Source: Parafrankia elaeagni
GTDB lineage: Bacteria > Actinomycetota > Actinomycetes > Frankiales > Frankiaceae
Reading direction: 5' to 3'
Assembly (NCBI RefSeq): GCF_000374165.1
Contig: NZ_KB893728.1
Coordinates: 186,001-250,000, forward strand
DNA: 64,000 nt
Under the pieces are notes generated by a model. The model made no database searches and was not told where the DNA came from. It was given only the letters and a program-made list of their open reading frames with translations. The position numbers and the translations under genes were made by a program. Shown in pieces: positions 45,589 to 63,554 of the stretch (positions within the stretch are counted from its first letter, which is position 1; each line of letters begins with the position of its first letter).

Positions 45589-45758
45589 CCGGATCCCGCG
45601 CCGGTGGAACCGGGCGAGGTCCGGTGAACGCCTGATCCGCGGTGGCTGCCGGCAGGCCGATGGCGGTGTTAGCGTCACGCTTTGTGCGGCTGCCGCCACG
45701 TGAGTGCCGCCGGACCCGCAGACCGCAGACCGCAGACCCCGGACCCGGGAGTGCCCAG

Positions 45759-48218: not shown

Positions 48219-48323
48219 GCGTCGGGCGCGCAGCGTTGTGTCTGTGCGTTTCCGGGTCGGCGCCGCGGGCGATCGATACGCTGCTGTCGCGGCAGATCGA
48301 CGACGTCACGGGGGCGGGGGATC

Positions 48324-49115
48324 ATGGACGCGGGGATCGTCGCTGCCCTGATCTCCTCAGTGCTGAGCGCTGTCGTCGCGGTCGCCGCGACGGTGTGGAC
48401 ACACCGGCAGGGCGTCGAGATGGAACGCCTTCGCCACGACCTCGAACGGTCCGAGCGGGACAACGAGAAGCGGTCCGCCGCGAAGACCGAACTCGACCGC
48501 TACCGGGAACCGCTGCTCGTCGCCGCGTTCGATCTCGGTTCCCGCATCCACGCCATCCGCAAGAAGGAGTTCCTCGCCTATCTGACGTCCACGGAGCGCC
48601 GGAGCCGGCTCGCGCTGCTGGGCACGCTGTTCTGCGTCGCCCGCTACTTCGGGACACTGGAGATCGTGTACTCGCGCCTGGCGTTGCTGCGTTTCGAGAG
48701 CGCCGACGACACCCGGGTCGTCGCCGCACTGCTCGCGGACATCGGCGGGGCGTTCAGCAGTGACCAGTACGACCGGGTCGACACCTACCACTCCTCCCGC
48801 TTCATGCTGTGGCGGGAGGAGCAGCGGGCCATCGGCGAACTCATGCGCGGCGGTCCCGGCAGCACCGCGACCGAGTGCCTGGGGTTCGCCTACTTCCACG
48901 ACAACTACGACCAGGTCTTCGCCGAGTGGTTCGACGCGTTCGCCGCGGCACTGGAGTCACCCGAGGCCGCGGTGGCGGCCAGCGCCCGGCTCGCCCGGCT
49001 GCAGACCCTGCTCGCCCTCCTCGTGGGCCTGCTCGATGAGGAGGGCGCGTTCACCCTCACCGTCGGCGGCGAGCGCCTCGCCCCCGACTGGGTCACCCCG
49101 GCAGGCCTGGCCTGA
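48324..49115 (+). CDS. Membrane-anchored hypothetical protein with coiled-coil neck
   Basis: A 263-residue protein with one N-terminal membrane helix (residues ~4-25, GIVAALISSVLSAVVAVAATVW). A short Arg/Glu-rich coiled coil follows (HRQGVEMERLRHDLERSERDNEKRSAAKTELDRYREPLLVAAFDL, in parts). A helical domain of ~180 residues comes next (LGTLFCVARYFGTLEIVYSRLALLRF, FSSDQYDRVDTYHSSRFMLWREEQRAIGELM). Related proteins are common in actinobacteria without assigned function. The ATG at 48324 is preceded by GGGGGCGGGGG. It follows the GH3 gene by ~105 bases but is not obviously linked. Confidence 0.65.
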   Translation: MDAGIVAALISSVLSAVVAVAATVWTHRQGVEMERLRHDLERSERDNEKRSAAKTELDRYREPLLVAAFDLGSRIHAIRKKEFLAYLTSTERRSRLALLGTLFCVARYFGTLEIVYSRLALLRFESADDTRVVAALLADIGGAFSSDQYDRVDTYHSSRFMLWREEQRAIGELMRGGPGSTATECLGFAYFHDNYDQVFAEWFDAFAAALESPEAAVAASARLARLQTLLALLVGLLDEEGAFTLTVGGERLAPDWVTPAGLA

Positions 49116-49139
49116 CCCGTCCGAGGGGAGGTCCGCCCG

Positions 49140-49760
49140 TCAGGGCTCGCGACGGGTCGGCCGCCGCCTCTTGATCACGAAGATGGCGGCGATGATGGCG
49201 AAGGCGGCGATACCCGCGCCGATCACCGCGAGGATCCAGCCGTGCCCGCCGCCGCTGTCGTCCGGCGCGGGGCGGATCACCTCCGGGGCGGTGCTCGTCG
49301 CGGACGTGACGGCAGCCGTCGGTGCCGACGTCGATGTCGTCGATGTCTGCGTGGGCGTGGGTGTGGGCGGCGGTGCGGGGGCGGCCACGGTGAAGGAGAA
49401 GTCGCCGTTCATCGCATGGCCGTCCCCGGCGATCACCCGCCAGACGGCCTGGTAGCGGCCGTTGGCGAGCCCGGTGACGGGCACCGTCAGCGTGGTGTCG
49501 GCAGCGGACGGTGCGCCGACCGTGACGGGCGCGCCCGCGCCGCCCGTCACGGTGACGGTGGAGCCGTCGGCGCGGACGAGCCCGCTGAAGGTGAGCGAGA
49601 TCTGCCCGGGGACCGTGTCCAGCGTCGCACCGGCAGCCGGATCGGAGGTGGTGAGCGCGGTATGGGCCCAGGCGGGCGAACCCAGGGCAGTGACCGTCAG
49701 TACGGCCAGTGCGACGACCAGTGTCGCTGCGGACCGGGTCGCGCGTGATCGTCTGTGCAC
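49140..49760 (-). CDS. CopC-domain copper-resistance protein with C-terminal anchor
   Basis: A 206-residue secreted or membrane-anchored protein. The signal peptide at residues 1-32 ends AWA before HTALTTSDPAAGATL, giving the mature N-terminal His that ligates Cu(II) in CopC. The beta-barrel has SLTFSGLVRADGSTVTVTG and VIAGDGHAMNGDFSFTV (Asp/His Cu ligands). A Thr/Ser/Pro linker and one C-terminal helix (GWILAVIGAGIAAFAIIAAIFVI) plus a basic tail follow. It is the standard actinobacterial YcnJ/CopC-like receptor, usually beside copD or DUF1775 genes, which are absent here. The GTG at 49760 is the apparent start. Confidence 0.9.
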   Translation of the reverse strand: MHRRSRATRSAATLVVALAVLTVTALGSPAWAHTALTTSDPAAGATLDTVPGQISLTFSGLVRADGSTVTVTGGAGAPVTVGAPSAADTTLTVPVTGLANGRYQAVWRVIAGDGHAMNGDFSFTVAAPAPPPTPTPTQTSTTSTSAPTAAVTSATSTAPEVIRPAPDDSGGGHGWILAVIGAGIAAFAIIAAIFVIKRRRPTRREP

Positions 49761-50216
49761 GGCTCGGATGTTACGGCGCGGACCGCCCCGCCGACCGCAG
49801 AGCCGGCCTCCCGCCCCGCGCGGGTCTGCCCGCACGTCTGCCTGCACGTCTGCCTGCATCGGCTCCACGGGCGGAGCCCGGTGGCGCGCTGCGGCCGGTG
49901 TCGGCTGCGTCAGCGTGGCGGCCGGCCGGGGGGCAGAAGAATCCGGTGCGCCGCCGTGGTCATTTCCGTCATCTCGCGTGGAACGGAACGGTATTACTTC
50001 CGGGATGCTGCCTTGACGTGCGACCGACGACACACCTAATCTGTGTTATCCGAATGTCGTCATATCGTCAACGGGAGTTGCCGTGGACAGGCTGATCTGT
50101 TTGGTGGGCAGGGCGATCTTTTTATCGGGCGGCCGGGATGCGGGAATTCGCACGAGTGCACGCCCCGGTTTTGTCGATGATCGGGCTGTGTTTTCCGTGT
50201 GGGTCGGGGCGGCACG
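49761..50216. other. 456-bp intergenic region with a sigma-70-like promoter
   Basis: No gene is supported. The right half is markedly less GC-rich than its surroundings. It includes TTGACG/TAATCT at 50013-50042 and a TCGTCATATCGTCA stretch, so it is most likely the regulatory region of the TIM-barrel epimerase gene. Confidence 0.45.
50013..50042 (+). promoter_or_regulatory. Candidate sigma-70-type promoter
   Basis: A -35 element TTGACG (50013-50018) and a -10 element TAATCT (50037-50042) are separated by 18 bp. They lie ~175 bases upstream of the GTG of the sugar-isomerase-like gene. The match is good for a high-GC genome where such boxes are rare. Confidence 0.45.
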
Positions 50217-51086
50217 GTGACTGCGCCGGCGCCCGGTGCCGCGTCGGCCGCGGTGACCGCCCCGACGCTTTTTCCGCTCGGCGGTCCCTTCGGGGCGGCC
50301 GAGGCGCGTGCCCTGGTCGACGCGGTGGCCGGTGCCGGTTTCGGTGCCGTGCAGCTGACCGGCGCCCATGTCGACGGCGCGGCCGCGGACGGGATGGCCC
50401 GCGAGGAGTTCCTCGACCTGCACCGGGCCCGCGGGCTGGAGGTCGTGACCGTCGAGGTGCTGATGGGCTGGGCGACGGCCGACCAGGAGACGATCGCCGC
50501 CGAGGCCGTGCCGCTGCTCGACCTGGCCCGGCACGCCGGCTGCGACAAGGTCGTGGCGATCACGATCGACAGGTCGGGGGCGTCGGCGGCCGAGGTGGCG
50601 CAGCGGCTGGCCTACCTGTGCGATCTCGCGGCCGAGCGCGGCCTGCGGATCAGCTACGAGTTCATACCCTGGTCGGTGGTGCCGACCCTGGCGGATGCGC
50701 TGCGCCTGCTCGACGCGGTCGACCGGCCCAATCTCGGGCTGGTGCTGGACACCTGGCACCTGTTCCGCCAGCCGGGCGGGCTGGACGAGGCGGTGCTGCG
50801 GGCGGTGCCCGCCGACCGCGTGCACGTGGTGCAGCTGTGCGACGCGCCCGCCCGGCCCGCCGACGACCCGGTGGTGGAGACGACGACCGGCCGGCTGCTG
50901 CCCGGCGAGGGCGACATCGACATCCCGGCCGTGCTCGATGTGCTCGCCGCCGCCGGGGCCACACCGGTCATCGCGGCCGAGGTGTATTCCGCCCCGCTTG
51001 CGGAACTCGGGCCGGCGGAAATGGCGCGGCGAGTTTACGCGGCGACCGAGAAGGTCCTCGGAACTCGCTTTTCCGGGCGGGTATGA
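50217..51086 (+). CDS. Sugar phosphate isomerase/epimerase-type TIM barrel protein
   Basis: A 289-residue AP-endonuclease-2-like TIM barrel. Conserved pieces are FGAVQLTGAHVDG, VVAITIDRSGAS, RISYEFIPWSVVPTLADALRLLD, NLGLVLDTWHLFRQPGG (metal Asp/His) and VIAAEVYSAPLAE (Glu). Metal ligands E-D-H-E are placed as in hydroxypyruvate isomerase, inositol 2-keto epimerases and xylose-isomerase-like enzymes. The exact substrate is not determinable. The GTG at 50217 is preferred, and GTG 50199 is in frame. It converges on the CoA-transferase/lyase operon 190 bases away and may act on its products, but no direct evidence supports this. Confidence 0.85.
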   Translation: MTAPAPGAASAAVTAPTLFPLGGPFGAAEARALVDAVAGAGFGAVQLTGAHVDGAAADGMAREEFLDLHRARGLEVVTVEVLMGWATADQETIAAEAVPLLDLARHAGCDKVVAITIDRSGASAAEVAQRLAYLCDLAAERGLRISYEFIPWSVVPTLADALRLLDAVDRPNLGLVLDTWHLFRQPGGLDEAVLRAVPADRVHVVQLCDAPARPADDPVVETTTGRLLPGEGDIDIPAVLDVLAAAGATPVIAAEVYSAPLAELGPAEMARRVYAATEKVLGTRFSGRV

Positions 51087-51276: not shown

Positions 51277-52311
51277 CTACCGGGTCGTGGTGACCCCGTC
51301 GAAGCCGCCCATGATCTCCTTCCAGGTCGTGTCGACCATGTCGCGTGCCGATCCTCCGCGGGTGAGGTGGTCGAGCGGGTCGCGTCCGGTCGCCTCCCGG
51401 GCCAGCTCCGACACCCGGGTGTACCGCTCGGCGTCCACCCCGGTGCTGACACCGATCGCGTCGGTGAACGCGAGGAGGTCCTCGGTCGGCAGGTTCCCGA
51501 GGACGTCCGGCTCGCCGGGGAACCACAGGTCGCCGCCGATGCCGCAGAACGCCGACTCCAACCAGTCGACACCGGTCTGCAGCGCGGCGAGGGCGTTCGC
51601 GAGCGCGAACCCGTTGCGGGCATGCAGGTGCAGCCCGAGCTCCAGGCCGGGGAAACGCTGCCGGGCCGCGGCCAGCGCCTCGGCGACCTGCACCGGGTTG
51701 GACATGCCGACGGTGTCACCGAAGTAGACCCCGGTCGCGCCGGCGTCGACGGCGCGACCGATGATCTCCATCCGCGTGGCGGGGTCGGTCGGCCCCACAC
51801 ACGGCGCGAAGAACGCCATCGCGATCCCGACGACGAGCGCGGCACCCTCGCGCCGGGCGGCCGCCCCGATCGCGGGCAGCTCGGCGAGGACCTCCTCGAC
51901 GCCGCGGCCCTGGTTGAGCCGGCTGACGTCCTCGTCGCAGCAGGTCAGCGCGACCAGGTGGTCGAGACCGCAGCCGGCGGCGCGCAGCGCGCCCTTCAGG
52001 TTCGGGACGAGCGCCCGGTAGCGGACCCCGTCGACCCGCGGCACGGCGGCCAGGACGGCTTCGGCGTCCGCGAGCTGGGGGAGGACCTTCGGGTGCGCGA
52101 ACGAGGCGACCTCGATCTCGCGCACCCCGGCCTCGACCAGCCGGTGGACGAGATCGACCTTCACCTCGGTCGGGATGGTCTGCTCCACCGACTGCAGGCC
52201 GTCCCGCAGCCCGACCTCGACCAGCGTCACGCTGCCCTGCAGGGCGAGCGCCGCTGCCGGCGACCCGCCCTCGGCCGGTGACCCGCCGTCGGCCGGTGTG
52301 GCCGGCGTCAT
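51277..52311 (-). CDS. HMG-CoA-lyase-like DRE-TIM aldolase lacking the catalytic loop cysteine
   Basis: A 344-residue DRE-TIM metallolyase. The divalent metal and catalytic sites are intact: Arg36-Asp37 (GLRDGLQ), His228 and His230 (LGLHLHARNG) and Asn273 (GNLPTED). The flexible loop that in HMG-CoA lyases reads GGCPYA and provides the proton-donating Cys is GIGGDLWFPG here, with Asp261 in its place. The enzyme should therefore cleave a related 3-hydroxy-3-methyl-type acyl-CoA, probably not HMG-CoA itself. Its ATG overlaps the stop of the CaiB/BaiF CoA-transferase gene (ATGA), consistent with activation followed by retro-aldol cleavage. Confidence 0.88.
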   Translation of the reverse strand: MTPATPADGGSPAEGGSPAAALALQGSVTLVEVGLRDGLQSVEQTIPTEVKVDLVHRLVEAGVREIEVASFAHPKVLPQLADAEAVLAAVPRVDGVRYRALVPNLKGALRAAGCGLDHLVALTCCDEDVSRLNQGRGVEEVLAELPAIGAAARREGAALVVGIAMAFFAPCVGPTDPATRMEIIGRAVDAGATGVYFGDTVGMSNPVQVAEALAAARQRFPGLELGLHLHARNGFALANALAALQTGVDWLESAFCGIGGDLWFPGEPDVLGNLPTEDLLAFTDAIGVSTGVDAERYTRVSELAREATGRDPLDHLTRGGSARDMVDTTWKEIMGGFDGVTTTR

Positions 52312-53549
52312 CGGACGACTCCCCGTTCACGCAGGTCGGCGATGTCACCGTCGCTGAATCCGAGCTCGTCCAGCAGGTCGTCGGTGGCGTCGCCGAGTGG
52401 CGGGCCGGCCCAGCGCACCCGTGCCGGGGTGCGGCCGAACCGCGGGACGACGGTCTGCATCGGCAGCTCCGACCCCTTGACATCCACCGCGACGATGGAC
52501 TGCCGGGCGGCGAAGTGCGGGTCGTCGAGCATTTCGGGGGCGCGGTAGACCATCCCGCACGGGACGGCGTGCTCCTCGCAGCTGCGCTCCACCTCGTGGT
52601 GGGTCAGCGTGCTGGTCCAGGCGGCGATGCGCTGGTCGAGCTCCTCCTGCCGGTCGCCGCGCGCACCGTGGGTGGCGTAACGGGGGTCGTCCGCCAGCTG
52701 CGGGTCACCCATGGCGGCGGCGAGCCGGCGGAAGACGGTGTCCTGGTTCGCGGCGATCAGCACCTCGGCGCCGTCCGAGGTCGGGTAGACGTTGGACGGG
52801 GCGACACCGGGAAGCACCGATCCGGTGCGCTCCCGGACGTGCCCGAAGGCGGCGAAGTCGGCGACCAGCGACTCGCTCATCGCGAGGACGGCCTCGTACA
52901 GCGCGCAGTCGACGACCTGCCCGCGCCCGCTGACTCCGCGCTCGACGAGCGCGGAGACAGCGCCGAGCGCGCCGAGGGTGCCGGCCAGGCTGTCGCCGAT
53001 CGACAGGCCGGCGCGGCTCGGCGGGCGGTCCGCCTCGCCGATGAGAGCCCGCAGCCCGCCCATCGCCTCGCCGATGGAGCCGTAGCCGGCCCGGGCGGCG
53101 TACGGGCCGGTCTGGCCGAAGCCGGTGACCCGCACCATGATCAGGCCGGGGTTGACGGCGGAGAGCTCCGGGTAGCCCAGGCCCCACCGCTCCATCGTGC
53201 CGGGGCGGAAGTTCTCCACCAGGATGTCGGCGGTGGCCGCGAGCCGGCGGACCAGCGCCTGGCCCTCGGCGCTGCGCAGGTCGCAGCCGAGCGAGCGCTT
53301 GTTCCGGGCCAGCACCGACCAGTGGACGGGGTCCCTCGTCCCGTCGGTGTGCCCCCAGCGCCGCATCGGGTCGCCGGCCGACGGATCCTCGATCTTGATG
53401 ACCTCGGCGCCGTAGTCGCCGAGGAGCTGGCCGCAGAACGGGCCGGCGATGAGCTGGCCGAGTTCCAGCACCCGGATGCCGGCGAGTGGCCCCTCACCGG
53501 GCCGTCGGCGTGCGGCCGGCGCGCTCGTCGTCCCGGGTTCGTCCACCAT
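52308..53549 (-). CDS. CaiB/BaiF family III CoA-transferase
   Basis: A 413-residue class III CoA-transferase that moves CoA between carboxylic acids via an aspartyl-anhydride. The family start GIRVLELGQLIAGPFCGQLLGDYGAEVIKIEDP, the VHWSVLARNKRSLGCDLRSAEGQAL block, DILVENFRPGTMERWGL and the catalytic Asp186 in GLSIGDSLAG are all present. It forms the tightest pair of the operon with the downstream lyase (4-base overlap) and follows the IclR gene by 27 bases. Function by context: CoA activation of the acid later split by the lyase. Confidence 0.93.
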   Translation of the reverse strand: MVDEPGTTSAPAARRRPGEGPLAGIRVLELGQLIAGPFCGQLLGDYGAEVIKIEDPSAGDPMRRWGHTDGTRDPVHWSVLARNKRSLGCDLRSAEGQALVRRLAATADILVENFRPGTMERWGLGYPELSAVNPGLIMVRVTGFGQTGPYAARAGYGSIGEAMGGLRALIGEADRPPSRAGLSIGDSLAGTLGALGAVSALVERGVSGRGQVVDCALYEAVLAMSESLVADFAAFGHVRERTGSVLPGVAPSNVYPTSDGAEVLIAANQDTVFRRLAAAMGDPQLADDPRYATHGARGDRQEELDQRIAAWTSTLTHHEVERSCEEHAVPCGMVYRAPEMLDDPHFAARQSIVAVDVKGSELPMQTVVPRFGRTPARVRWAGPPLGDATDDLLDELGFSDGDIADLRERGVVR

Positions 53550-53576
53550 CTCCGGTCTCCTCGATCCTCGGTGTGC

Positions 53577-54383
53577 CTACAGAAGCTGCTGGGAGATCGC
53601 CTTCGCGCAGTCCACCAGGGTCGGCGCGTGCCGGGCGGCCGACTCCAGGGAGAGCCGGAACGTGGGTGCGCCGATCGCCAGCGCCCCGACCAGGGCCCCG
53701 TGCGCGTCGGTGACCGGCGCGGCCATCGAGCTGAGCCCGCGTTCGCGTTCCTCCGGGGCGTACGCCCAGCCGCGACTCCGGGTCTCCCGCAGGTCGTCCT
53801 CCAGCCGCTCGCGGCTGACGATCGTGTTCGTGGTGTACGCGGTGAGGCCGGCGTCGAGGGCGGCCCGCAGCGCCTCGGGGTCGTAGGCCATGAAGACCTT
53901 CCCCGCGCCGCCGGCGTTGAGCGGCTGGATCTGGCCGACCCGGCCCTGGTAGATGATCGACTGCTCGGAGTGGCTGATCAGCACGGCGACCCGCGACCCG
54001 CCCTGGCGCACGTAGACGATGCTCGACTCGCCGGTGCGGTCGCGCAGCTCGGTGACGACCGGCTTCGCCGCCTCGATCAGGTCGGAGCCGGCGGTCGCCG
54101 CCGCCGACCAGGCCATCACCCGCAGCCCGATCGAGTAGAAGTCACCTGTCCGCGCCAGCAGGTTCTCCTGGACGAGTGACCGCAGGATCCGGGCGACCGT
54201 CGTCGCCGGCAGGTCGGTGGCCGCCCGGACGTCCGATGCCCGCAGCCGCGGCTGCCCCCGGGAGAAGCAGTCGAGGATCAGCGCCTGGCGGTGGAGTACC
54301 TGCACCGCGTCGGCGTCCCGGGCTGCCCCGCGCTCCGGCTCGTCGTCCTGGTCGTTGGTTCGCAATCGGTGTGCTGCCTTCAA
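53577..54383 (-). CDS. IclR-family regulator
   Basis: A 268-residue IclR protein. The N-terminal winged helix is RQALILDCFSRGQPRLRASDVRAATDLPATTVARILRSLVQENLLARTGDFYSIG. The effector domain includes GESSIVYVRQGGSRVAVLISHSEQSIIYQGRVGQIQPLNAGGAGKVFMAY. It is embedded inside the catabolic operon it probably controls, 16 bases from the isomerase-like gene and 27 from the CoA-transferase. The only good start is TTG at 54383 without a clear ribosome-binding site. A 12-bp direct repeat (TCAGTGGTGGAG) lies just ahead of it. Confidence 0.92.
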   Translation of the reverse strand: MKAAHRLRTNDQDDEPERGAARDADAVQVLHRQALILDCFSRGQPRLRASDVRAATDLPATTVARILRSLVQENLLARTGDFYSIGLRVMAWSAAATAGSDLIEAAKPVVTELRDRTGESSIVYVRQGGSRVAVLISHSEQSIIYQGRVGQIQPLNAGGAGKVFMAYDPEALRAALDAGLTAYTTNTIVSRERLEDDLRETRSRGWAYAPEERERGLSSMAAPVTDAHGALVGALAIGAPTFRLSLESAARHAPTLVDCAKAISQQLL

Positions 54384-54399
54384 ATTCAGTGGTGGAGGG

Positions 54400-55158
54400 T
54401 CAGTGGTGGAGAAGGAGTGAGCCGAATCCCTCGCGCCGGTCCGGCAGACCGGCCCGGCGCAGGGCGTGCCAGTACGTCGCCGTGTTCACCGCGATGACCG
54501 GCAGCCCGAGCCAGCGCTCGGCCTCGTCGGCGAGCCGGGCCATCGAGAGGTTCGCGCCGAACTGGATGATGGCCCGCGGCCGGTCCCGCGCCAGGTCGGT
54601 GAGGGCGGTGCGGACGTCCGCCTCGGGGATGTGGGAGATCTGCAGCGGGGTGGGCGCCCGCAGGTGGATCGCCCGCCGGTAGTCGTAGCCGAGCTCCTCG
54701 ACGAACCCGCGCAGGTGCCCGTCGGCGTCCGGCATGTACGGGGTGACCAGGGAGACCTCACCGCCGTCGATGCCCAGTGCCGCCAGCGCGGCGGGCAGGG
54801 CATCCGCCGCGTGGATGAGGGTCAGCGGGCCGAACCTCTCGGCGAGGCGCTTCTCGATCGCCCGCGCGGCGGACACTCCGCCCTGGTAGACAGCCTCGAT
54901 CGAGACACCCATGAGGACACAGTCCGGGGCGCAGGACAGCACCCGTTCGACGGCGTCGTCCAGCGCGCCGTCGATGGCGCGGACGAGTTCCTGGAACCCG
55001 GAGTCCCCGTCGATCGGCTTCTCCGGGATGTGGATGCGCGCCACGTGGTTCGTCACCCCGTACGGCCGCATCGCGTCGTACTCGGGCTGGACCACCGTGT
55101 TGACCGACGGTGTCACCACGCCGAACTTGGCGCGGTACCCCAGCGGGTCACCGGGCAT
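54400..55158 (-). CDS. Maleate isomerase/arylmalonate decarboxylase-like protein without catalytic cysteines
   Basis: A 252-residue Asp/Glu-racemase-superfamily protein. Fold motifs are clear: FGVVTPSVNTVVQPEYDAM, CVLMGVSIEAVYQGG, VSLVTPYMPDADGHLRGF and RAIIQFGANLSMARLADEAERWLGLPVIAVNTATYWHALR. The positions that hold Cys in maleate isomerases and AMDases (CTS-type loop and SCTNL-type loop) are Gly-Val-Ser and Gly-Ala-Asn, so thiol-based isomerisation or racemisation is not possible. The ATG at 55158 has GAGGAGA 8 bases upstream and overlaps the end of the OYE gene by 11 bases. It may be a decarboxylase, hydrolase or binding protein of the pathway acid. Confidence 0.85.
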   Translation of the reverse strand: MPGDPLGYRAKFGVVTPSVNTVVQPEYDAMRPYGVTNHVARIHIPEKPIDGDSGFQELVRAIDGALDDAVERVLSCAPDCVLMGVSIEAVYQGGVSAARAIEKRLAERFGPLTLIHAADALPAALAALGIDGGEVSLVTPYMPDADGHLRGFVEELGYDYRRAIHLRAPTPLQISHIPEADVRTALTDLARDRPRAIIQFGANLSMARLADEAERWLGLPVIAVNTATYWHALRRAGLPDRREGFGSLLLHH

Positions 55159-57196
55159 GGTCTCGTCTCCTCGGGCCTGGTAGCGGGTGGGCGGCGGCAG
55201 TGATCGACCGGGCGGCGAGGTCACCGTCCCAGACGGCGTCGAACACCCGGCGCGGGGCGACGCAGTCCCCGACGGCCACCGCGTGCTGGCCGGCGGCGCG
55301 GAGCTCGCGCAGCAGGCCGTCCTCGGCGATCTGCCCGGTCACCAGCACCACCGCGTCGACTGGTTCACGCACCTCCTCCTCGCCGGTGTGGACGTCCGCG
55401 AGACGCACCCTGTCCTCGTCGATGGCGACGAGCTCGAGGCCGGCGGTGAGCCGGACCCCGGCCCGGCGCAGCCGCCCGGTGACGCTTGGCAGGTCGTGGC
55501 TGTCGGCCAGCCCGATGCCGACGTGGGGCAGCCGGGTGACGATCTCGACGGTGCGGCCGGCGGCCAGGTACTCGGCGGCGGCGAGGGCCCGGCGGTCCCC
55601 GATGTCGTCGAGGACGAGCACCGACGCCGGCAGCGTCACCTGGTCACCGAGGACCTCCCTGACCGTGTAGACGTTCCACTGGCCGGTGCCCGGGACAGGG
55701 GCCGACCCGGGCGCCCACCGGGACGGCCGCAGCGCCGTCCACCCGTCGCGGCGCGGGACGGACCCGGTCGCCACGACGCAGGTGTCGTAATGGCCGGCGA
55801 GCTCCGCGGCGCTCACCTCGTGGCCCAGCCGCAGGGTGACGTCGTGGTGCCGCAGCTGCTCGGTCATCCAGTCGGTGATGCCGAGCCACTCCCGGTAGGG
55901 CTCGGCGGCGCTGAGCCAGCGCACCTGGCCACCGGTTTCCGCCGCCCGCTCGAACAGCGTCACCCGGTGGCCCAGCTCGGCGGCGGTCAGTGCCGCCCGC
56001 AGCCCCGCCGGCCCCGCCCCGACGACCGCGACGCTGGCCGCGGGCGTGGTGGTGGCGGTGGCCGCGGCCACCACGGTCCCGGCCTCCCGCCCGACGTCCG
56101 GGTTGTGGATGCAGGCGAGCGAGGTGCGGGCGATCGAGGCGATGCAGTGGTTCGCGCCCACACACGGCCGGATGTCGTTGGGACGCCCCGCCGCGGCCTT
56201 CGCCACCCACTGCGAGTCGGCGATCAGCTGCCGGGCCATCCCGACGAAATCCGCCTGGCCGCGCTGGAGCACGGCCTCGGCCAAATCGGGGGTGGTGATG
56301 CGCCCGACGGCGATGACGGGCAGCCCGCCGGCGGCCGCCCTGATCTGTTCGGTCGCCGGGAGCTCGTAACCCGCCGGCGCGGGGGCGGCACCGTAGATGA
56401 GCATCCGGTCGAGGTAGGTGCCCTGGGAGACGGAGATGTAGTCCACCTTGCCGGTGGCGGCGATCCGCCGGGTGATCTCCACCCAGTCCGCGGGGCGCAG
56501 CGCGGCCTCGAAGTCGCCGTCGTCGCCGTTGACCCGGATGCCGACGACCAGGTGCGGCGGCACCACGGAGCGGACCCGCTCGATGATGCGCTCGACCAGC
56601 CGGAACCGGTTCCGCGCGTTGCCGCCGTAGTCGTCGGTGCGGTGGTTGGTGGCGGGGGAGAGGAACTGCCCGAGCAGGTAGCCGTGCGCCAGCCCGTGGA
56701 TCTCCACCCCGTCGAGGCCGCCCTCGACGGCGAGCCGCGCCGACTGCTCGTAGCCGTCGACGAGCTCGTCGATCTCCGCGGCGGTCACCTCGTGCGGGAT
56801 CTCCCGGTACACCGCGCACGGGACCGGGCTCGGCGCCCACACCGGCAGCCGGCTCACCACGCTGTCCGTCTCCCGGCCGCGGTGCCACAGCTGGGCGAAC
56901 AGCAGGGTGCCGTGCGGCTGGACGGCCGCCGCGACCTTGCGGTAGCTCTCCACGACCGCCGGGTCGTAGGCGAGCACGACACCGGTGCGGGGCTGGCTCG
57001 TCGGATGGACCGACGTCGCCTCCATCGTGATGACCGCGACCCCGTTCGCCGCCCGCTCGCCGTAGTAGGCGGCGTGCGCGTCGGAGTAGGTGTGGTCGGT
57101 GGTGAACTCGGTCGCGTGGGCCGTCATCCAGACCCGGTTGCGGGTGGTGCGCGGACCGAGCCGTCCGGGGGTGAACAGCGCTGGGTAGGTCGTCAT
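55148..57196 (-). CDS. Old yellow enzyme-type NADH:flavin/2,4-dienoyl-CoA reductase-like oxidoreductase
   Basis: A 682-residue flavo-iron-sulfur enzyme of the 2,4-dienoyl-CoA reductase/trimethylamine dehydrogenase family. The FMN TIM barrel covers residues 1-330 (LGPRTTRNRVWMTAHATEF, GVEIHGLAHGYLLGQFLSP, DDYGGNARNRFRL). The FAD/NAD(P) domain begins at ~385 (VAVVGAGPAGLRAALTAAELGHRVTLFE). The Fe-S loop gives Cys345, Cys351 and Cys362, but the second ligand position is Ala348 (family C-x2-C-x2-C-x11-12-C). The cluster may be 3Fe-4S or lost. It likely reduces or dehydrogenates a CoA or carboxylic substrate in this operon. Confidence 0.9.
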   Translation of the reverse strand: MTTYPALFTPGRLGPRTTRNRVWMTAHATEFTTDHTYSDAHAAYYGERAANGVAVITMEATSVHPTSQPRTGVVLAYDPAVVESYRKVAAAVQPHGTLLFAQLWHRGRETDSVVSRLPVWAPSPVPCAVYREIPHEVTAAEIDELVDGYEQSARLAVEGGLDGVEIHGLAHGYLLGQFLSPATNHRTDDYGGNARNRFRLVERIIERVRSVVPPHLVVGIRVNGDDGDFEAALRPADWVEITRRIAATGKVDYISVSQGTYLDRMLIYGAAPAPAGYELPATEQIRAAAGGLPVIAVGRITTPDLAEAVLQRGQADFVGMARQLIADSQWVAKAAAGRPNDIRPCVGANHCIASIARTSLACIHNPDVGREAGTVVAAATATTTPAASVAVVGAGPAGLRAALTAAELGHRVTLFERAAETGGQVRWLSAAEPYREWLGITDWMTEQLRHHDVTLRLGHEVSAAELAGHYDTCVVATGSVPRRDGWTALRPSRWAPGSAPVPGTGQWNVYTVREVLGDQVTLPASVLVLDDIGDRRALAAAEYLAAGRTVEIVTRLPHVGIGLADSHDLPSVTGRLRRAGVRLTAGLELVAIDEDRVRLADVHTGEEEVREPVDAVVLVTGQIAEDGLLRELRAAGQHAVAVGDCVAPRRVFDAVWDGDLAARSITAAAHPLPGPRRRDHAR

Positions 57197-57206
57197 CCCG
57201 CCTGGC

Positions 57207-58037
57207 CTACTGGATCGGCTCGTCGCCGAGGAGAGTCGTCCGGTGCATGACGCGCGGCTTCGAGCGGTCGAACTCGCAGGCCCGGTGGACGAGGCCGCGG
57301 TTGTCCCAGATCACCATGTCGCCCACCGTCCAGGTGTGGCGCAGCACCCGGTCGGGGGTGGTGGTGCGCTGCTCCAGTTCGTCGAGCAGCTCCCGACCCT
57401 CGGCGGCCTCCAGCCCCACCACGTGGGACGTCGTCGACCCGATCACGAGCGAGCGGCGGCCGGAGCGCTGCTCCCAGACCAGCGGGTGCGTCCGTTCCGG
57501 CCGGGACGCCCACTCCGCCAGCTGCTCCGGTGTCGGGTCCGGGTAGCTGTGGCGCTGCACGGCCTCGAAGGTGTGCACCACCCGCAGCTTCGCGAAGCGC
57601 TCCTTCTCCGCGGCGGAGAGGGCCTCGTACGCGTTGTAGGTGCTGGCGAACTCCGTCTCGCCGCCCTCGGCGGCGACCACGTGGGCGCTGAGGACCCCGG
57701 CCTTCGGCGGGGGCACGGCGTCGAGGCAGCCGTCCAGGTGCCAGCGGTCGTTGCTGCGGAAGTACTCCGCGTTCGGGTTCGCCGGGTCGAAGCTGATCTC
57801 GGTGACCTCGGGGATCCGGTACTTGGCGGACTTCGCCAGGCTGCCCAGCTTCCGGCAGAACTCCACCTGGCTCTCGTCGTCAGCGTGTAATTCGCGGAAA
57901 AGCAGCACGCCGTACTCCTCCAGCGCGGCTGTGCAGGCCCCCGGCAGATCGTCGTCGGCGCGCAGGCGCTCGACGTCGACACCGAGGATCTCCACCCCGA
58001 CGTGCTCGCTCAGTCTCTCCACGGCGATCACGGCCAT
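57207..58037 (-). CDS. TauD/TfdA-family 2-oxoglutarate Fe(II) dioxygenase
   Basis: A 276-residue jelly-roll dioxygenase. The Fe(II) facial triad His100-x-Asp102 (RWHLDGCLD) and His251 (NRGLVHRACEF) is complete, and Arg266 (RVMHRTTLLG) would bind the 2-oxoglutarate carboxylate. N-terminal LRADDDLPGACTAALEEYGVLLFREL is typical. Members hydroxylate sulfonates, aryloxyacids, glutarate or other carboxylates. It is the first gene of the tightly packed run and is followed after 10 bases by the OYE gene. An oxygen-dependent hydroxylation of the pathway acid is the natural first or second step. Confidence 0.93.
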   Translation of the reverse strand: MAVIAVERLSEHVGVEILGVDVERLRADDDLPGACTAALEEYGVLLFRELHADDESQVEFCRKLGSLAKSAKYRIPEVTEISFDPANPNAEYFRSNDRWHLDGCLDAVPPPKAGVLSAHVVAAEGGETEFASTYNAYEALSAAEKERFAKLRVVHTFEAVQRHSYPDPTPEQLAEWASRPERTHPLVWEQRSGRRSLVIGSTTSHVVGLEAAEGRELLDELEQRTTTPDRVLRHTWTVGDMVIWDNRGLVHRACEFDRSKPRVMHRTTLLGDEPIQ

Positions 58038-58187
58038 CCGTCGTTCCTCCTCCTGCCGGTGCCCCGCCCGGGAGCCACCGACCCGCTGGTCCTGTTCGTG
58101 CCTTCCTCGCGTTCGCGTCGACCCACCGCGGCGCTCGGATCCACTGCGGCGCTCGGATCGTGGTTCGATTGTGCTACTGATCGTCCG

Positions 58188-59006
58188 TCAGATCCGGCGT
58201 CCGGCCGGTACCTCGTTGTGTCTGCGTGGCCAGCGGAACATCGCGTTCGACGCGTGCTGGCCGCCGTTGATCAGCAGGGTCACGCCGGAGACCCAGCCGG
58301 CCTCCGCCGAGCACAGGTAGAGCGCCGCGGCCGAGACGTCGTCGACATGGCCCACCCGGTTGATCGGGTAGAACGACGCCAGGTCGATCTGGTCCTCCTC
58401 GGAGACCAGCCGGTCGGCGACGAGCGGGGTGTCGATGAGGCCGGGCGCGATCGCGTTCACCCGGATCCCGTGCGTGCCGAACTCCATGCCCAGCGTCGAG
58501 GTCAGATGATTGATGGCCGACTTCGCCGACCCGTAGAGCACGGCGCCGGGTGTCGGGAACAGGCCGCCGGTCGAGGTGATGTTGAGAATGGCGCCGGGAA
58601 TGCCCAGGCGCACCATCGACTCCGCGGCCTTGATCGAGGTGAACAGCGCCGACTTCACATGCAGCTGGTAGACGTGGTCGACGTCGTCGTCGGTGAGATC
58701 GAAGGTGGAGCGCTCGAGCCGCCCGGTGTCACCGGCCGAGTTCACGAGGACGTCGATCCGCCCCATCACGTCGAGCGCGCGGGTGACCAGGTCCTGCGGG
58801 GCGCCGCGGGCGGTCAGGTCGACGGGCAGCGCCCACGCCTCCCGGCCCAGCTCCTTGATCTCCCGGACGGTGTCGTCGAGCTGCCCGGGGCTGCGGGCGG
58901 CGACGGCGACGTCCGCTCCGGCCTTCGCGTAGGCCAGTGCGATGGCCCGGCCGATGCCGCGGCCACCCCCGGTGATCAGGGCCCTGCGGCCAGCATAGGA
59001 GAACAT
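58188..59006 (-). CDS. Short-chain dehydrogenase/reductase
   Basis: A 272-residue SDR. Cofactor motif TGGGRGIG near residue 12, NSAG near residue 88, and catalytic Ser (ILNITSTGG), Tyr and Lys (YGSAKSAINHL) are all present, as is the PG loop IAPGLIDTP. The ATG at 59006 has GGAGG 7 bases upstream. It precedes the dioxygenase by 150 bases on the same strand and is probably part of the same regulon, suited to oxidising the hydroxyl group introduced by the dioxygenase. NAD(P) preference cannot be called with confidence. Confidence 0.93.
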   Translation of the reverse strand: MFSYAGRRALITGGGRGIGRAIALAYAKAGADVAVAARSPGQLDDTVREIKELGREAWALPVDLTARGAPQDLVTRALDVMGRIDVLVNSAGDTGRLERSTFDLTDDDVDHVYQLHVKSALFTSIKAAESMVRLGIPGAILNITSTGGLFPTPGAVLYGSAKSAINHLTSTLGMEFGTHGIRVNAIAPGLIDTPLVADRLVSEEDQIDLASFYPINRVGHVDDVSAAALYLCSAEAGWVSGVTLLINGGQHASNAMFRWPRRHNEVPAGRRI

Positions 59007-59227
59007 GATCGACCTCCGCACGTGGTAGCGATCCGGCCGGGGCTCCGCGAGCGTCTCCTGGCCGGCCGACGTGACCGTATCGTGGTTACTGGACCCGAGA
59101 TACGGCTTCGACGAAAAATCATTGTTCGGGCAACCTGCCCCGGATCGCCATCCACTGAGACGCTCCGACCGTCTTTGTGTGGATATCGGAGGTAAGGTTC
59201 CACCCCGTCACCACCTACGCTGGACGC

Positions 59228-60979
59228 GTGACGGCACCGACGACGGCTGACCCCGCCGCCTCCGCGACCGGCCCCGGTACGGCGGGCACGCCTCAGTCGG
59301 GCGGGGGCGGGCCCCGGTGGCGGCATCTCCCGGACCGCGCCGCCGCCCTCCGGCTCCGCGTCGCCGCCGGAGGCTCCGGCCAGGCCGCCACCGGCAGGTC
59401 GGGACACGGCGGCAGCGACCGGGCGGACGAGGCGCTGAAGAACCGGCTGTGCCCGCCGATGCCGACCGATCGGGTGCTCGGCTGGGCAGCGGCCCTCGCC
59501 GTCACCGTCGTCGCCGGCCTGCTGCGGTTCTGGCAGCTGACCGAGCCGAAGGGCATCTACTTCGACGAGGTCTACTACACCAAGGACGCCTGGGGCCTGA
59601 TGACCGCGGGCTACGAGGTGGACAGCAACACCTGCTCGGGGCCCGCCTTCGTCGTGCACCCACCGTTGGGCAAGTGGTTCATCGCGGCGTCCGAGAGGGT
59701 CTTCGGCTACATCGACTGCGCCGGGGTGCCGCACGGAAGCCCCGAGCTCGGATGGCGGTTCGCCTCCGCGTTCTTCGGCACCCTCGCCGTGCTGGTGCTC
59801 ACCCGGCTCGCGCGGCGGATGTTCCGTTCCACCCTGCTCGGCTGCGTCGCCGGCCTGCTGCTCGCGCTGGACGGGCTCGCCTTCGTCCAGAGCCGGATCG
59901 GCATCCTCGACATCTTCCTGATGACGGGCCTTGTGCTGGCGCTGGCCTGCCTCGTGCTCGACCGCGACCACGGCCGCGCCCGCCTCGCCGCCCGCCTCGC
60001 GGCCGACGGTGCCGCGCCTGACGACGGTGCCGCGCCTGACGACCGTGCCGCGCCCGACGAGCGCGCGGCGCGGTACGGGCCCCGGCTCGGGTGGCGGCCC
60101 TGGCGGATCGCCGCCGGACTGTGCCTCGGCGCGTCCCTGGGGGTGAAATGGAGCGCGCTCTACACCCTGGTCGGGTTCGCCGCGCTCGCCCTGGCCTGGG
60201 ACATCGGCGCCCGGCGCACCGCCGGCGCCGCCAGGCCGGGGCGTGGGGCGCTGCGCCGCGACGCCCCCGCCTGGGCGGGCTGCTACGTCCTGCTGCCGAT
60301 CGTCACCTTCCTGGCCACCTGGACGGGCTGGTTCGTCACCGACGGCGGGTGGCGCCGGCACGAGCACGGCGACGGGTTCGTCGCCGCCTGGCGCGGCTGG
60401 TGGTCCTACCAGCAGGCGATCCTGAACTTCCACGAACACCTGTCCTCTCCGCACGTCGCCCAGTCGACGCCGATGAGCTGGCTGGTGATGGGGCGTCCGG
60501 TGGCCTACGACTACGAGGGCGTCCCGTTCGGCCAGCAGGGCTGCCGGGCCGCGGAGGGCTGCGCCCGCGAGGTGCTGGCGCTCGGCAACCCGGCGGTCTG
60601 GTGGGTCGGGTCCGCCGCGCTGCTGGCGATGGTCGCGCTGTGGGCCAGCCGGCGCGACTGGCGGGCCGCCCTGGTGCTCGTCGGCTTCGGCTCGTCGTTC
60701 CTGCCCTGGCTGGCGTTCCCGGACCGCACGATGTTCTTCTTCTACGCGCTGCCGCTGCTGCCGTTCCTGATCCTCGGGATCACGATGTCGGCCGGCCTGG
60801 TCCTCGGCCCCCGCACCGCGTCCGACACGCGCCGCCTGGCGGGGGCGGTGGTCGTCGGCAGCTACCTCATCGTGGTCATCCTGCTGTTCGCCTACTTCTA
60901 CCCGCTGCTGGCCTCACAGGTGATTCCGCTGAACGGCTGGCGGGACCGCATGTGGTTCCCCGGCTGGATCGTCGCCTGA
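59228..60979 (+). CDS. pmt: Dolichyl/polyprenyl-phosphate-mannose protein O-mannosyltransferase
   Basis: A ~583-residue membrane GT39 enzyme with about 11 helices. The essential acidic motif FDEVYYTKDAW sits in the first extracytoplasmic loop. PAFVVHPPLGKWFIA and SRIGILDIFLMTGLVLALACLVLDRD follow, and WFVTDGGWRRHEHGDGF is in a large loop. It transfers mannose from polyprenyl phosphate to Ser/Thr of secreted proteins, as Rv1002c does. A Pro/Asp-rich cytoplasmic insert comes from three 18-bp tandem repeats (60005-60058). The GTG at 59228 is preferred over 59177. Confidence 0.92.
   Translation: MTAPTTADPAASATGPGTAGTPQSGGGGPRWRHLPDRAAALRLRVAAGGSGQAATGRSGHGGSDRADEALKNRLCPPMPTDRVLGWAAALAVTVVAGLLRFWQLTEPKGIYFDEVYYTKDAWGLMTAGYEVDSNTCSGPAFVVHPPLGKWFIAASERVFGYIDCAGVPHGSPELGWRFASAFFGTLAVLVLTRLARRMFRSTLLGCVAGLLLALDGLAFVQSRIGILDIFLMTGLVLALACLVLDRDHGRARLAARLAADGAAPDDGAAPDDRAAPDERAARYGPRLGWRPWRIAAGLCLGASLGVKWSALYTLVGFAALALAWDIGARRTAGAARPGRGALRRDAPAWAGCYVLLPIVTFLATWTGWFVTDGGWRRHEHGDGFVAAWRGWWSYQQAILNFHEHLSSPHVAQSTPMSWLVMGRPVAYDYEGVPFGQQGCRAAEGCAREVLALGNPAVWWVGSAALLAMVALWASRRDWRAALVLVGFGSSFLPWLAFPDRTMFFFYALPLLPFLILGITMSAGLVLGPRTASDTRRLAGAVVVGSYLIVVILLFAYFYPLLASQVIPLNGWRDRMWFPGWIVA
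60005..60058 (+). repeat. Three 18-bp tandem repeats inside the mannosyltransferase gene
   Basis: Units start at 60005, 60023 and 60041. The first two are identical, and the third differs at two bases. They encode a Asp-Gly-Ala-Ala-Pro-Asp type hexapeptide in a cytoplasmic loop between helices. A loop length polymorphism is likely between strains. Confidence 0.85.
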
Positions 60980-61029
60980 CCATTCCGCTCTGGACGGGTG
61001 GCCGCCGTACCGGGGCGGCGCAGCAGGCT

Positions 61030-61074
61030 GGGAACCAGGCGATCGGGAACCAGGCGATCGGGAATCAGGCGATC
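61030..61074. repeat. Three 15-bp tandem repeats across the LLM gene stop codon
   Basis: Units GGGAACCAGGCGATC at 61030 and 61045 and GGGAATCAGGCGATC at 61060. The single C-to-T difference in the third copy creates the TGA stop of the leftward LLM gene. With the consensus unit the frame would read on as Ile-Ala-Trp-Phe-Pro repeats. Confidence 0.85.
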
Positions 61075-61985
61075 GCGGGCATGATCTCCTCGGCCACCCA
61101 CTGGGTGTAATCGTAGTATTCCTGGATGTCGTTGACGGCGGGGATGGGCACCGAGCTCATGGTGACGCCGAGTTCGGAGAACCAGCCCAGCCGATCGATG
61201 ATCTCCTGCCTGCTCATGCCCGGCCGGGCCCGCGGATCCGTCTGGACGCTGTGGCCCTCGCCGACGCGGGAGGTGGCGAACCCGTAGTACACCTCGGTGA
61301 GCCGGCCGTTGTAGTCCGGCTGGGAGCGGATGAAGTCCAGCCGCGCCGGGATGTCCTCGGGCTTCGTGAGGAACGGCCACCACCCCGACGCGTAACGGGC
61401 GGTGCGCCGCAGGACGGGGTCGGCGTCGCCGCCGAACCACACCGGCGGATGCGGGCGCTGCACCGGCTTCGGCTCGAACGCTACGTCCCGAAAGGAGACG
61501 TAGCGGCCCTCGAAGGCGGGCTTCTCCGCCGTCCACAGCTCGATGATCGCCTGGACGTACTCCTCGGCGATGGCGCCGCGTTCCCGGAACGGGACACCGA
61601 GGATCTCGAACTCCTCCGCCAGCCAGCCGACACCGAAGGTGACGGTGACCCGCCCACTGGACAACCAGTCCGTCGTCGCCAGCGATTTCGCCGTCACGAC
61701 GGGATGCTGTAACGGCAGGATCGCGATACAGGAGTTGACCCGGATCCGTTCGGTGGCGCCCGCCAGGTAGGCCATCCCGGAGTAGGCGTGGAAGTAGTGC
61801 GGGCCGGACAGCTCCACATGGCTCTCCGGGACGATGTGGTGCTCCGGGAGACTGATCATCGCGTAGCCGAGCTGCTCCGCCCAGCGGGCCAGGCGGGTCT
61901 GGTCCGCGCCGGTCACCTGGGCCTCCCAGGGCTGGCAGGTGGCCTTCAGTCGGAGCATGTGCGGCATCGCGAAGCCGAGTTTCAT
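61065..61985 (-). CDS. LLM-class oxidoreductase, probable F420-dependent (TIGR03619-like)
   Basis: A 306-residue luciferase-like TIM barrel. MKLGFAMPHMLRLK at the start, LARWAEQLGYAMISLPEHHIVP, GRVTVTFGVGWLAEEFEILGVPFRERGAIAEEYVQAI and PVWFGGDADPVLRRTARYASGWWPF are the conserved blocks. The family in actinobacteria usually uses F420H2 or FMNH2 for monooxygenation or hydride transfer. The ATG at 61985 has CAGGAG 9 bases upstream. It lies 19 bases downstream of the acyl-CoA synthetase stop on the same strand, so the pair is an operon, perhaps acting on a CoA-activated substrate. Confidence 0.92.
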   Translation of the reverse strand: MKLGFAMPHMLRLKATCQPWEAQVTGADQTRLARWAEQLGYAMISLPEHHIVPESHVELSGPHYFHAYSGMAYLAGATERIRVNSCIAILPLQHPVVTAKSLATTDWLSSGRVTVTFGVGWLAEEFEILGVPFRERGAIAEEYVQAIIELWTAEKPAFEGRYVSFRDVAFEPKPVQRPHPPVWFGGDADPVLRRTARYASGWWPFLTKPEDIPARLDFIRSQPDYNGRLTEVYYGFATSRVGEGHSVQTDPRARPGMSRQEIIDRLGWFSELGVTMSSVPIPAVNDIQEYYDYTQWVAEEIMPAIA

Positions 61986-62004
61986 GATCGTTCACTCCTG
62001 TCGG

Positions 62005-63330
62005 TCAGGTGAGCAGCAGCTTCTTCTGGACCTTGCCCATCGGGTTGCGCGGCAGGGACGTCGCGAAACGGATCTCCCGTGGGCGCTTGTGCGGAGCCAG
62101 CGTCGACGCGACGTGGTCGATCAGCACGGTGGCCTCGACGGTGTCACGGGTGACGACGACCGCCACGATCCGCTGGCCCAGATCGTCGTCGGGGACGCCG
62201 ATGACGGCAGCCTCGGCGACCGCGGGATGGGCGAGCAGCGCGTTCTCGATCTCCCCGGCGCCGATCTTGTAACCGCCCGACTTGATGAGGTCGGTGCTCT
62301 GCCGGCCGACGATGCGCAGCTGCCCGTCCGGCTCGAACACCCCGAGGTCGCCGGTGGCGAACCAGCCATCGGGCGCGAGCGCCGCGGCGGTCGCCGCCGG
62401 ATTGCCCAGGTAGCCGGTGAACACGTTCGGGCCGCGCACCTCCACCGGGCCGAACTCCTCCGCCCCGGTGACCCGGACCTCGACACCGTGCAGCGGGGCA
62501 CCGACGACCCCCGGCCGGCGGTCACCGTCGGCCCGCGCGGCGGTGTTGATGAGGGTCTCCGTCAGGCCGTAACGTTCCGCGACCCGCTGGCCGGCCTGGG
62601 CCACGAACCGGTCGAACACCGGCACCGGCAGCGCGGCCGAGCCCGAGACGAGCAGGCGGGCCGACGCGAAGGCCTCCGGTTCCGGCACCCGGGACCACAT
62701 GGTGGGCACCGCGAAGTACAGCGTCCCGCCGGGCACCGGCGCGAAGCGTGCCACGTGCCGCAGCGCGGAGCCGATCCGCAGCGGGCCCAGCGTGCCCAGC
62801 ACGAGCCCGTGCACGTGGAACAGCGGCAGGGCGTGCCCGAGCACGTCGTCCGGCGACCAGGCCCAGGCGTCCGCGAGCGCGTCGATGTTCGCGGCGATCG
62901 CCCGCCGGGGGATGACCGCGCCCTTCGGTGGCCCGGTCGTCCCCGAGGTGTAGATGACAAGCGCGGGGGCTTCGGCGCCAGCCCCGCCAGCCCCGCCAGC
63001 CCCGGGAGCCTCGTCGACCTCGGGGGGCAGCGCGGAGCGGGCGGTCAGGTCGACCTCGTCGAGGACCAGGTCGGGCGCGCTGTCCTGCAGGACGTAGGCC
63101 CGTTCCGTCTCGCCCGCCTGCGGGTTGATCGTGACCACGGTGACGCCGGCCTCCACCGCGCCGGCGATGGCGACGACCGTCTCCAGGGTGGGGGTGGCGA
63201 CCACGGCCACCCGGCGCACGCCGCGCAGCCGCGCGGCGACGGCGCCGACGGCGCCCGCAAGATCGTCTCCTTCCAGAGCGACGTCCGCTACCTGGATCCT
63301 GGCCTCGCCTCGGCGCAACGCAGTCAGCAC
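62005..63330 (-). CDS. Acyl-CoA synthetase of the malonyl-CoA synthetase (MatB) type
   Basis: A 441-residue AMP-forming ligase. The P-loop-like A3 motif is ALVIYTSGTTGPPKGAVIPRRA, with A5 ERYGLTETL, A7 DGWFATGDLGVFEPDGQLRIVGRQSTDLIKSGGYKIGAGEIENAL and the adenylation Lys in PRNPMGKVQKK. The short N-terminus and the LFHVHGLVLG block resemble malonyl/methylmalonyl-CoA synthetases. The GTG at 63330 with GGAGA upstream fits. It is coupled to the downstream LLM gene. The specific acid cannot be proved here. Confidence 0.88.
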   Translation of the reverse strand: MLTALRRGEARIQVADVALEGDDLAGAVGAVAARLRGVRRVAVVATPTLETVVAIAGAVEAGVTVVTINPQAGETERAYVLQDSAPDLVLDEVDLTARSALPPEVDEAPGAGGAGGAGAEAPALVIYTSGTTGPPKGAVIPRRAIAANIDALADAWAWSPDDVLGHALPLFHVHGLVLGTLGPLRIGSALRHVARFAPVPGGTLYFAVPTMWSRVPEPEAFASARLLVSGSAALPVPVFDRFVAQAGQRVAERYGLTETLINTAARADGDRRPGVVGAPLHGVEVRVTGAEEFGPVEVRGPNVFTGYLGNPAATAAALAPDGWFATGDLGVFEPDGQLRIVGRQSTDLIKSGGYKIGAGEIENALLAHPAVAEAAVIGVPDDDLGQRIVAVVVTRDTVEATVLIDHVASTLAPHKRPREIRFATSLPRNPMGKVQKKLLLT

Positions 63331-63368
63331 ACGCCCATTCTCCGGCCCCGGCGTGCCTCAGGTCGACG

Positions 63369-63425
63369 GAACCGGCAGGGTCGGGAGGAACCGGCAGGGT
63401 CGCGAGGAACCGGCAGGGCCGGGAG
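63369..63425. repeat. Three 19-bp tandem repeats upstream of the ligase operon
   Basis: Units of 19 bases beginning GAACCGGCAGGG start at 63369, 63388 and 63407, with one or two differences each. They lie in the promoter region of the leftward acyl-CoA synthetase, ~40 bases from its GTG, and in the leader region of the rightward one. A regulatory role is possible. Confidence 0.8.
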
Positions 63426-63554
63426 CAGGACCGCGGCCCGGGGCTCCGGCAACGGCCGGACAACGCCGCCTTCACTGGCCTAACCTGCCCTGGTGTCCAT
63501 TCGTCCGCCCGCGACCGGCCCTTCCCGCTAGAGACGACCGACGGAGAGGAACGA

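Follow-up and report, generated by a model that had tools for sequence, protein, structure and literature searches.

The seven-gene block

We analysed a window of 64,000 nucleotides from Parafrankia elaeagni (positions 186001–250000 of contig NZ_KB893728.1, here C59, in a genome of about 7.6 Mb), in which seven leftward open reading frames (ORFs) at 51277–59006 form a compact block that may encode a catabolic module for a carboxylic acid. The ORF list and family scans place in this block, from right to left and all on the minus strand, genes for an SDR dehydrogenase (58188–59006; PF13561, 173 bits; YxxxK motif YGSAK), a TauD/TfdA 2-oxoglutarate-dependent dioxygenase (TauD; 57207–58037; PF02668, 200.4 bits), an OYE/FAD oxidoreductase of the FadH/trimethylamine dehydrogenase type (OYE; 55148–57196; PF00724), a Cys-less protein resembling maleate isomerase and arylmalonate decarboxylase (MI; 54400–55158), an IclR-type regulator (53577–54383; PF01614 and PF09339), a CaiB/BaiF family III CoA-transferase (CaiB; 52308–53549; PF02515, 410.8 bits, and alignment) and an HMG-CoA-lyase-like DRE-TIM lyase (HMGL; 51277–52311; PF00682, 126 bits, and alignments). 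The genes and families are those proposed in a first-pass annotation of this DNA, which also described all junctions from the dioxygenase onward as overlaps or gaps of 27 nt or less.

This spacing was borne out. TauD and OYE are separated by 10 nt, IclR and CaiB by 27 nt, and CaiB and HMGL share a 4-nt ATGA overlap. The longest ORF of MI starts at 55224 and would overlap OYE by 77 nt, whereas the likely ATG start at 55158, directly upstream of which stands GAGGAGAC, reduces this to 11 nt. Between MI and IclR there are 16 nt when the TTG start listed for the regulator, which is provisional, is used. The only wide junction is the 150-nt gap between SDR and TauD, and it contains two tandem 18-nt repeats (58120–58155), a possible regulator site; inverted repeats that could serve as an IclR operator were not found in the three intergenic stretches examined.

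Conservation in other actinobacteria

The block was compared across 16 actinobacterial genomes that have an MI relative of at least 52% identity, counting duplicates once (L086 repeats L024, L090 repeats L021) and re-checking neighbour genes by tblastn, since the gene caller had missed or mis-framed some of them. OYE is the immediate same-strand neighbour of MI in 15 of the 16 genomes, being cut by the contig end in Rhodococcus JCM 9791. The pair is followed by CaiB (57–100% identity) in 11 genomes, and 10 have TauD (62–100%) at a distance of no more than 4.2 kb; nine have an HMGL-type lyase near MI and five an IclR gene. Since 29 matches to the CaiB family, fragments among them, occur in the genome of the window, the presence of CaiB alone says little.

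The full set SDR-TauD-OYE-MI-IclR-CaiB-HMGL is present in five genomes of the genus, with 73–100% protein identity (94–100% for the seven genes in comparison with Parafrankia colletiae). This type-A arrangement, found in the window and in loci L019, L020, L021 and L089, has the same order in four genomes, with SDR-TauD inverted in L021. Two further loci of the genus (L084 and L085) carry MI-OYE-CaiB-HMGL, with a truncated TPP gene ahead of it in L084. In type B (L024 and L087) the series SDR-GntR-CMD-SDR-TauD-TPP-BVMO, where BVMO stands for Baeyer-Villiger monooxygenase, diverges from MI-OYE-CaiB-HMGL-SGL-SDR-Rieske (SGL, SMP-30-like protein). In Rhodococcus SMB37, Rhodococcus JCM 9791 and Williamsia the genes that diverge from MI-OYE are SDR-TauD, and only Williamsia has CaiB beside the pair; in Nocardia a group SDR-AP2-GntR takes this divergent position, with CaiB present in one of the two genomes. 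A smaller core is common to Parafrankia, Frankia, Rhodococcus, Williamsia and Nocardia, and the conserved synteny that the first-pass annotation named as a check is found within the genus and, for the core, beyond it.

The AP2 protein of the Nocardia loci has a counterpart in the window, a xylose-isomerase-like TIM-barrel protein (50199–51086, plus strand, convergent with the block; PF01261, 112 bits). It is a candidate member of the pathway: in L020 and L089 its gene is the next one after HMGL, in the same orientation, and both Nocardia loci (L025 and L026) have it in the vicinity of MI.

That the seven genes are unrelated neighbours which merely share a direction of transcription is hardly credible. 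They do belong to seven different families with no obvious textbook pathway in common, but such an explanation would have to account for the overlapping junctions and for the recurrence across five named genera. Moreover, the window flanks at 44000–50150 and 59177–64000 match only L019 and not L020, L021 or L089 (blastn, E 1e-10), which indicates that the neighbourhood of the block varies within the genus; the same set thus recurs in unrelated settings. Mantel tests on distance matrices, which to their disadvantage as evidence for a shared module cannot tell joint transfer from common vertical descent, gave correlations of 0.97 for MI-OYE (n=14), 0.98 for MI-CaiB (n=11) and 0.90 for MI-TauD (n=9), values reached in none of 2000 permutations for each of the three pairs. 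The ratio of nonsynonymous to synonymous substitution rates (dN/dS) was 0.00–0.32 in the 25 of 28 comparisons that gave a value (all but those of HMGL, TauD and SDR of L021), which is consistent with purifying selection.

Altered active sites

The first-pass annotation had reported that three enzymes of the block lack a defining cysteine, and alignment to solved relatives confirms this for MI, OYE and HMGL. MI has Val and Gly at the positions of Cys76 and Cys194 of Nocardia farcinica maleate isomerase, and Gly in the column of Cys188 of arylmalonate decarboxylase. Its predicted fold is of the Asp/Glu racemase type, in agreement with a fold test for maleate cis-trans isomerase, and the arylmalonate decarboxylase model gives it 29 bits against a cut-off of 225. 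For the family alignment, 65 ORFs were clustered and three below 180 aa were dropped beforehand. Both cysteines of the maleate isomerase pair are absent in 66 of the 69 family rows. Among what we take to be the substrate residues of maleate cis-trans isomerase, the equivalents of Asn17 and Tyr133 are kept in 67 and 64 rows, respectively, while the Asn163 column is without Asn in every row; a QxG[A/T]N motif is conserved. MI matches were found in 10 of 36 genomes of an order sample (E 1e-20) and in 6 of 396 genomes of a phylum sample (E 1e-30), the window's own included, the other five being 36–43% identical.

MI relatives also occur on plasmids, where the name 'arylmalonate decarboxylase' is attached to 15 of 25 among the matches listed (36 records in total). 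Four so annotated on named plasmids (L154, L155, L156 and L157) all lack the catalytic Cys of that enzyme, on which the name depends, and a number of these annotations are therefore probably wrong. Two of the four loci lie beside a FAD-dependent monooxygenase gene and two beside a GntR regulator gene.

In OYE, the four Fe-S cysteines are replaced by a C-x2-A-x2-C-x10-C motif, with Ala at the position of the second Fe-S Cys of FadH. All 14 MI-linked OYEs with a visible motif have Ala or Ser in place of one Fe-S cysteine. The protein scores 569.9 bits on the mycofactocin OYE_2 model TIGR03997, for which the cut-off is 793.15 bits, and with Ala as the second of the four cysteines it departs from that model's four-Cys pattern as well; membership of the mycofactocin group was rejected. 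The idea that MI and OYE have lost their cysteines because they are degenerate enzymes was likewise discarded, in view of conservation across genera and low dN/dS.

The case of HMGL is different. It has Asp and a three-residue insertion at the position of human Cys266, while keeping the motifs RDGLQ, HxH and GN, presumably the metal-site motifs of HMG-CoA lyase. The Asp and insertion occur in all five type-A members; the Cys is kept in the four distinct type-B members and is also missing in 15 of 29 distant relatives from the phylum sample (the loci fetched among 55 places listed). Loss of this Cys as a pathway-defining feature, which the first-pass annotation had implied, could not be upheld, since a Cys-bearing lyase occupies the same place in the Frankia version and in two more from the window's genus.

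CaiB exceeds the family III Pfam gathering score and has an aligned Asp (GDSLAG) that we take to be the catalytic residue of family III. The nearest NCBIfam models are succinate--glutarate CoA-transferase (288.8 bits, equivalog cut-off 750) and then formyl-CoA transferase, with both scores under the cut-off. TauD passes its Pfam score and carries the motifs WHLD and LVHRA...RVMHR, of which WHLD and LVHRA presumably provide the HxD...H facial triad.

A probable larger system and related loci

The system is probably larger than seven genes, as suggested by distal genes on the same contig and by the Frankia version, in which part of that distal set is joined to the core. At C59:276049–289928, which is outside the window and 31–45 kb from the operon, we found the order P450-SGL-SDR-Rieske-BVMO-SDR-TPP-ALDH-AcuI-FAS1-like dehydratase. 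The acrylyl-CoA reductase AcuI is over its cut-off, and the dehydratase is some 44 kb away from the operon. The BVMO and the TPP enzyme are 76 and 87% identical to the Frankia genes. A similar second cluster at G019:C3:212–232 kb includes a TauD that is 63% identical to that of the window; within the window itself no match to BVMO, TPP, SGL or Rieske genes was found. The earlier proposal that the pathway lacks a hydratase, for which the dioxygenase would substitute, considered the seven genes alone and is weakened by the FAS1-like dehydratase and the other genes on the contig.

The nearest structure to the BVMO is 5mq6 (403 bits), presumably a polycyclic ketone monooxygenase, and the pentalenolactone-type model NF045818 (PtlE) gives 689 bits against a cut-off of 1100. 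Since TauD in turn scores with the pentalenolactone PtlD model, the operon might serve in tailoring of a natural product instead of degradation. We regard this as very doubtful: the PtlE score and the PtlD score (83 bits, cut-off 550) are far below the cut-offs, and the combination of a CoA-transferase, a lyase and IclR control, with no scaffold synthase among the seven genes, points to catabolism.

The closest relatives of the TPP enzyme in the PDB are acetolactate synthase, oxalyl-CoA decarboxylase and 2-hydroxyacyl-CoA lyase. An alpha-oxidation-like route can be imagined from this, in which CaiB would form an acyl-CoA, TauD would hydroxylate it at C-2, a TPP enzyme akin to oxalyl-CoA decarboxylase or 2-hydroxyacyl-CoA lyase would release formyl-CoA and an aldehyde, and ALDH would oxidise the latter. 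The formyl-CoA transferase model in second place for CaiB, and the TauD genes that adjoin TPP in L024 and L087, fit such a scheme. It is nevertheless improbable, because it leaves MI, OYE and HMGL without a role, the sole TPP match of the genome is 39 kb away from the operon, and in the window and loci L019, L022, L023 and L074 TauD is present without any TPP match over the sequence covered.

A stronger competitor, though still an unlikely one, is degradation of a terpenoid or alicyclic ketone, in which P450, Rieske and BVMO enzymes would open rings, the SMP-30-like protein would hydrolyse the lactone, TPP enzyme and ALDH would shorten the product, and CaiB and the lyase would remove a 3-hydroxy-3-methyl end. 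This explanation draws on the BVMO similarities, on the cluster on the window's own contig and on the Frankia version, which unites BVMO, TPP, SGL and Rieske genes with the core. Abscisic acid is a lead in this respect, as it fits several steps on paper: MI could act on its 2-cis enoate, OYE on its ring enone, and CaiB and the lyase on its methyl-branched side chain, which would yield the methyl ketone dehydrovomifoliol. Rhodococcus P1Y is reported to degrade abscisic acid to dehydrovomifoliol and rhodococcal acid (PMC7996341, PMC9599779), and the enzymes are, according to the latter, yet to be worked out. On the other hand, no BVMO, SGL or TPP gene lies close by in the sequence fetched for the Rhodococcus, Williamsia and Nocardia versions, apart from one partial 27% BVMO match in L025, and neither a carboxylase nor a specific hydratase was identified for this route.

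A different extension is found on a plasmid of Rhodococcus USK10, for which the PLSDB record is without annotation. Its order is an IclR gene divergent from genes for an ICL-type lyase, LeuC, LeuD, an ABC ATPase, two transporter-like proteins (by eye), MI and OYE, with the lyase and the LeuC/LeuD-like hydratase at 8506–11103 of locus L083. LeuC and LeuD are each over a family cut-off (LeuD/DmdB for LeuD), while the ICL-type lyase is below every equivalog cut-off. A scan of 87 loci and the window detected ICL-type lyases no more than 4 kb from MI relatives in L045, L046, L049, L050 and L052 (L049 and L050 being near-identical), and at 9 kb in L032; L045 also has a LeuC-like match. In an Acetobacteraceae locus (L044, 4051–11576), MI follows the uptake genes TctA and TctC, with a short gene and OYE divergent, and a second Acetobacteraceae locus (L034, 4527–11268) resembles it by eye. 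RidA- or CMD-like genes (also labelled by eye) come after TctA-TctC-MI in these two loci, another undescribed setting of MI.

To the right of the block, the window contains a PMT-like gene (59177–60979, label by eye) and then a gene for an F420-dependent luciferase-like oxidoreductase (61065–61985; TIGR03619, over cut-off).

Proposed pathway

Our preferred interpretation, held tentatively and at somewhat less than even confidence, is that the block is a catabolic module, found repeatedly as a unit in actinobacteria associated with plants and soil, whose substrate is a carboxylic acid of unsaturated, branched or cyclic structure. TauD and SDR would oxidise the substrate from C-H via C-OH to C=O. 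MI, with its equivalents of Asn17 and Tyr133, could bind the carboxylate of an enoate or enedioate and shift or isomerise the double bond without cysteine chemistry, after which the adjacent OYE would reduce that bond. The acid so formed may then receive CoA through CaiB, for instance from succinyl-CoA, and its CoA ester would be split by the DRE-TIM lyase in a retro-aldol cleavage to acyl-CoA units, with IclR as the probable regulator of the operon. The same core would, in the Frankia version, receive its input from Baeyer-Villiger, lactonase-like and TPP enzymes, which argues for a cyclic ketone upstream. In Rhodococcus USK10, the hydratase and the ICL-type lyase would stand in for the CoA branch; this replacement by a hydratase and a free-acid lyase is the best hint that MI and OYE act on an unsaturated (di)carboxylic acid. 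The TctA/TctC carboxylate uptake genes beside MI in L044, with OYE nearby, were also counted in favour of acid catabolism.

Several observations weigh against this interpretation. OYE is absent near MI in Thermocatellispora (L045, MI 54%) and in the 18 kb fetched from G028 (MI 38%), the Nocardia versions have no TauD, and the USK10 stretch has neither TauD nor CaiB. If OYE removed the double bond, the USK10 hydratase would need a second one. HMGL lacks Cys266 and scores 215.3 bits on the HMG-CoA lyase subfamily model NF004283, below the cut-off of 246, and the accepted mechanism of maleate isomerase is closed to an MI without cysteines, so that the name 'isomerase' is guesswork based on the fold. 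The gene set and its order, the joint conservation, the cysteine losses and the predicted MI fold are what the data show; the assigned enzyme steps are all inferred from families and neighbours.

The catabolic operon with altered active sites that the first-pass annotation proposed is thus supported, as is its remark that the block could not be matched to a described pathway: we found none with this gene set in openly licensed PMC papers, which is weak evidence of absence. Its suggestion of a branched or dicarboxylic acid that ends in retro-aldol cleavage gains indirect support from the USK10 hydratase and lyase upstream of MI-OYE and from the ICL-type lyases near other MI relatives. The substrate may be cyclic.

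A more daring proposal, which we consider possible but rather doubtful, is that MI and OYE have co-evolved as partners that use new chemistry on a double bond conjugated to a carboxylate, first shifting it and then reducing it. MI would be a Cys-free isomerase or lyase on the maleate isomerase fold, with the conserved QxG[A/T]N motif, and OYE a flavoenzyme with a three-Cys Fe-S cluster, the two forming the core of an undescribed pathway in five genera. The families of both proteins are known; their combination and active sites are without description in the literature searched. An activity of MI, once defined, would provide a case of catalysis without cysteine on a fold that has been studied well, and the module may show how root-associated actinobacteria consume plant-derived acids, possibly including hormones.

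Comparison with known systems

Degradation of itaconate and citramalate proceeds by a CoA-transferase, a hydratase and a citramalyl-CoA lyase (Ccl, CitE-like). The block resembles this route in the use of a CoA-transferase followed by a carbon–carbon lyase, there acting on a branched dicarboxylate, but its lyase has the HMG-CoA lyase fold, TauD, OYE, MI and SDR are extra, and family scans gave no mesaconyl-CoA or related hydratase among the seven genes. In anaerobic nicotinate fermentation there is a dimethylmaleate/dimethylmalate branch with DmdAB and an ICL-type lyase. The USK10 version is similar in having LeuC, a LeuD/DmdB-family subunit and an ICL-type lyase upstream of MI and OYE, whereas the hosts described here are aerobic actinobacteria and the operon in the window has no genes for the hydratase and ICL-type lyase.

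The bai operon, with BaiF, BaiCD and BaiA, also brings CaiB, OYE-FAD and SDR families together. To our knowledge it has no counterpart of MI, TauD or HMGL, and the OYE of the window obtains 323 bits on the BaiCD model, against a cut-off of 825. At the level of single enzymes, MI differs from maleate cis-trans isomerase (2xec, 4fq5) by replacement of both catalytic cysteines and of Asn163. Mycofactocin OYE_2, FadH and trimethylamine dehydrogenase share the two-domain OYE and FAD architecture of the oxidoreductase, from which the MI-linked OYEs are set apart by the replacement of one Fe-S cysteine.

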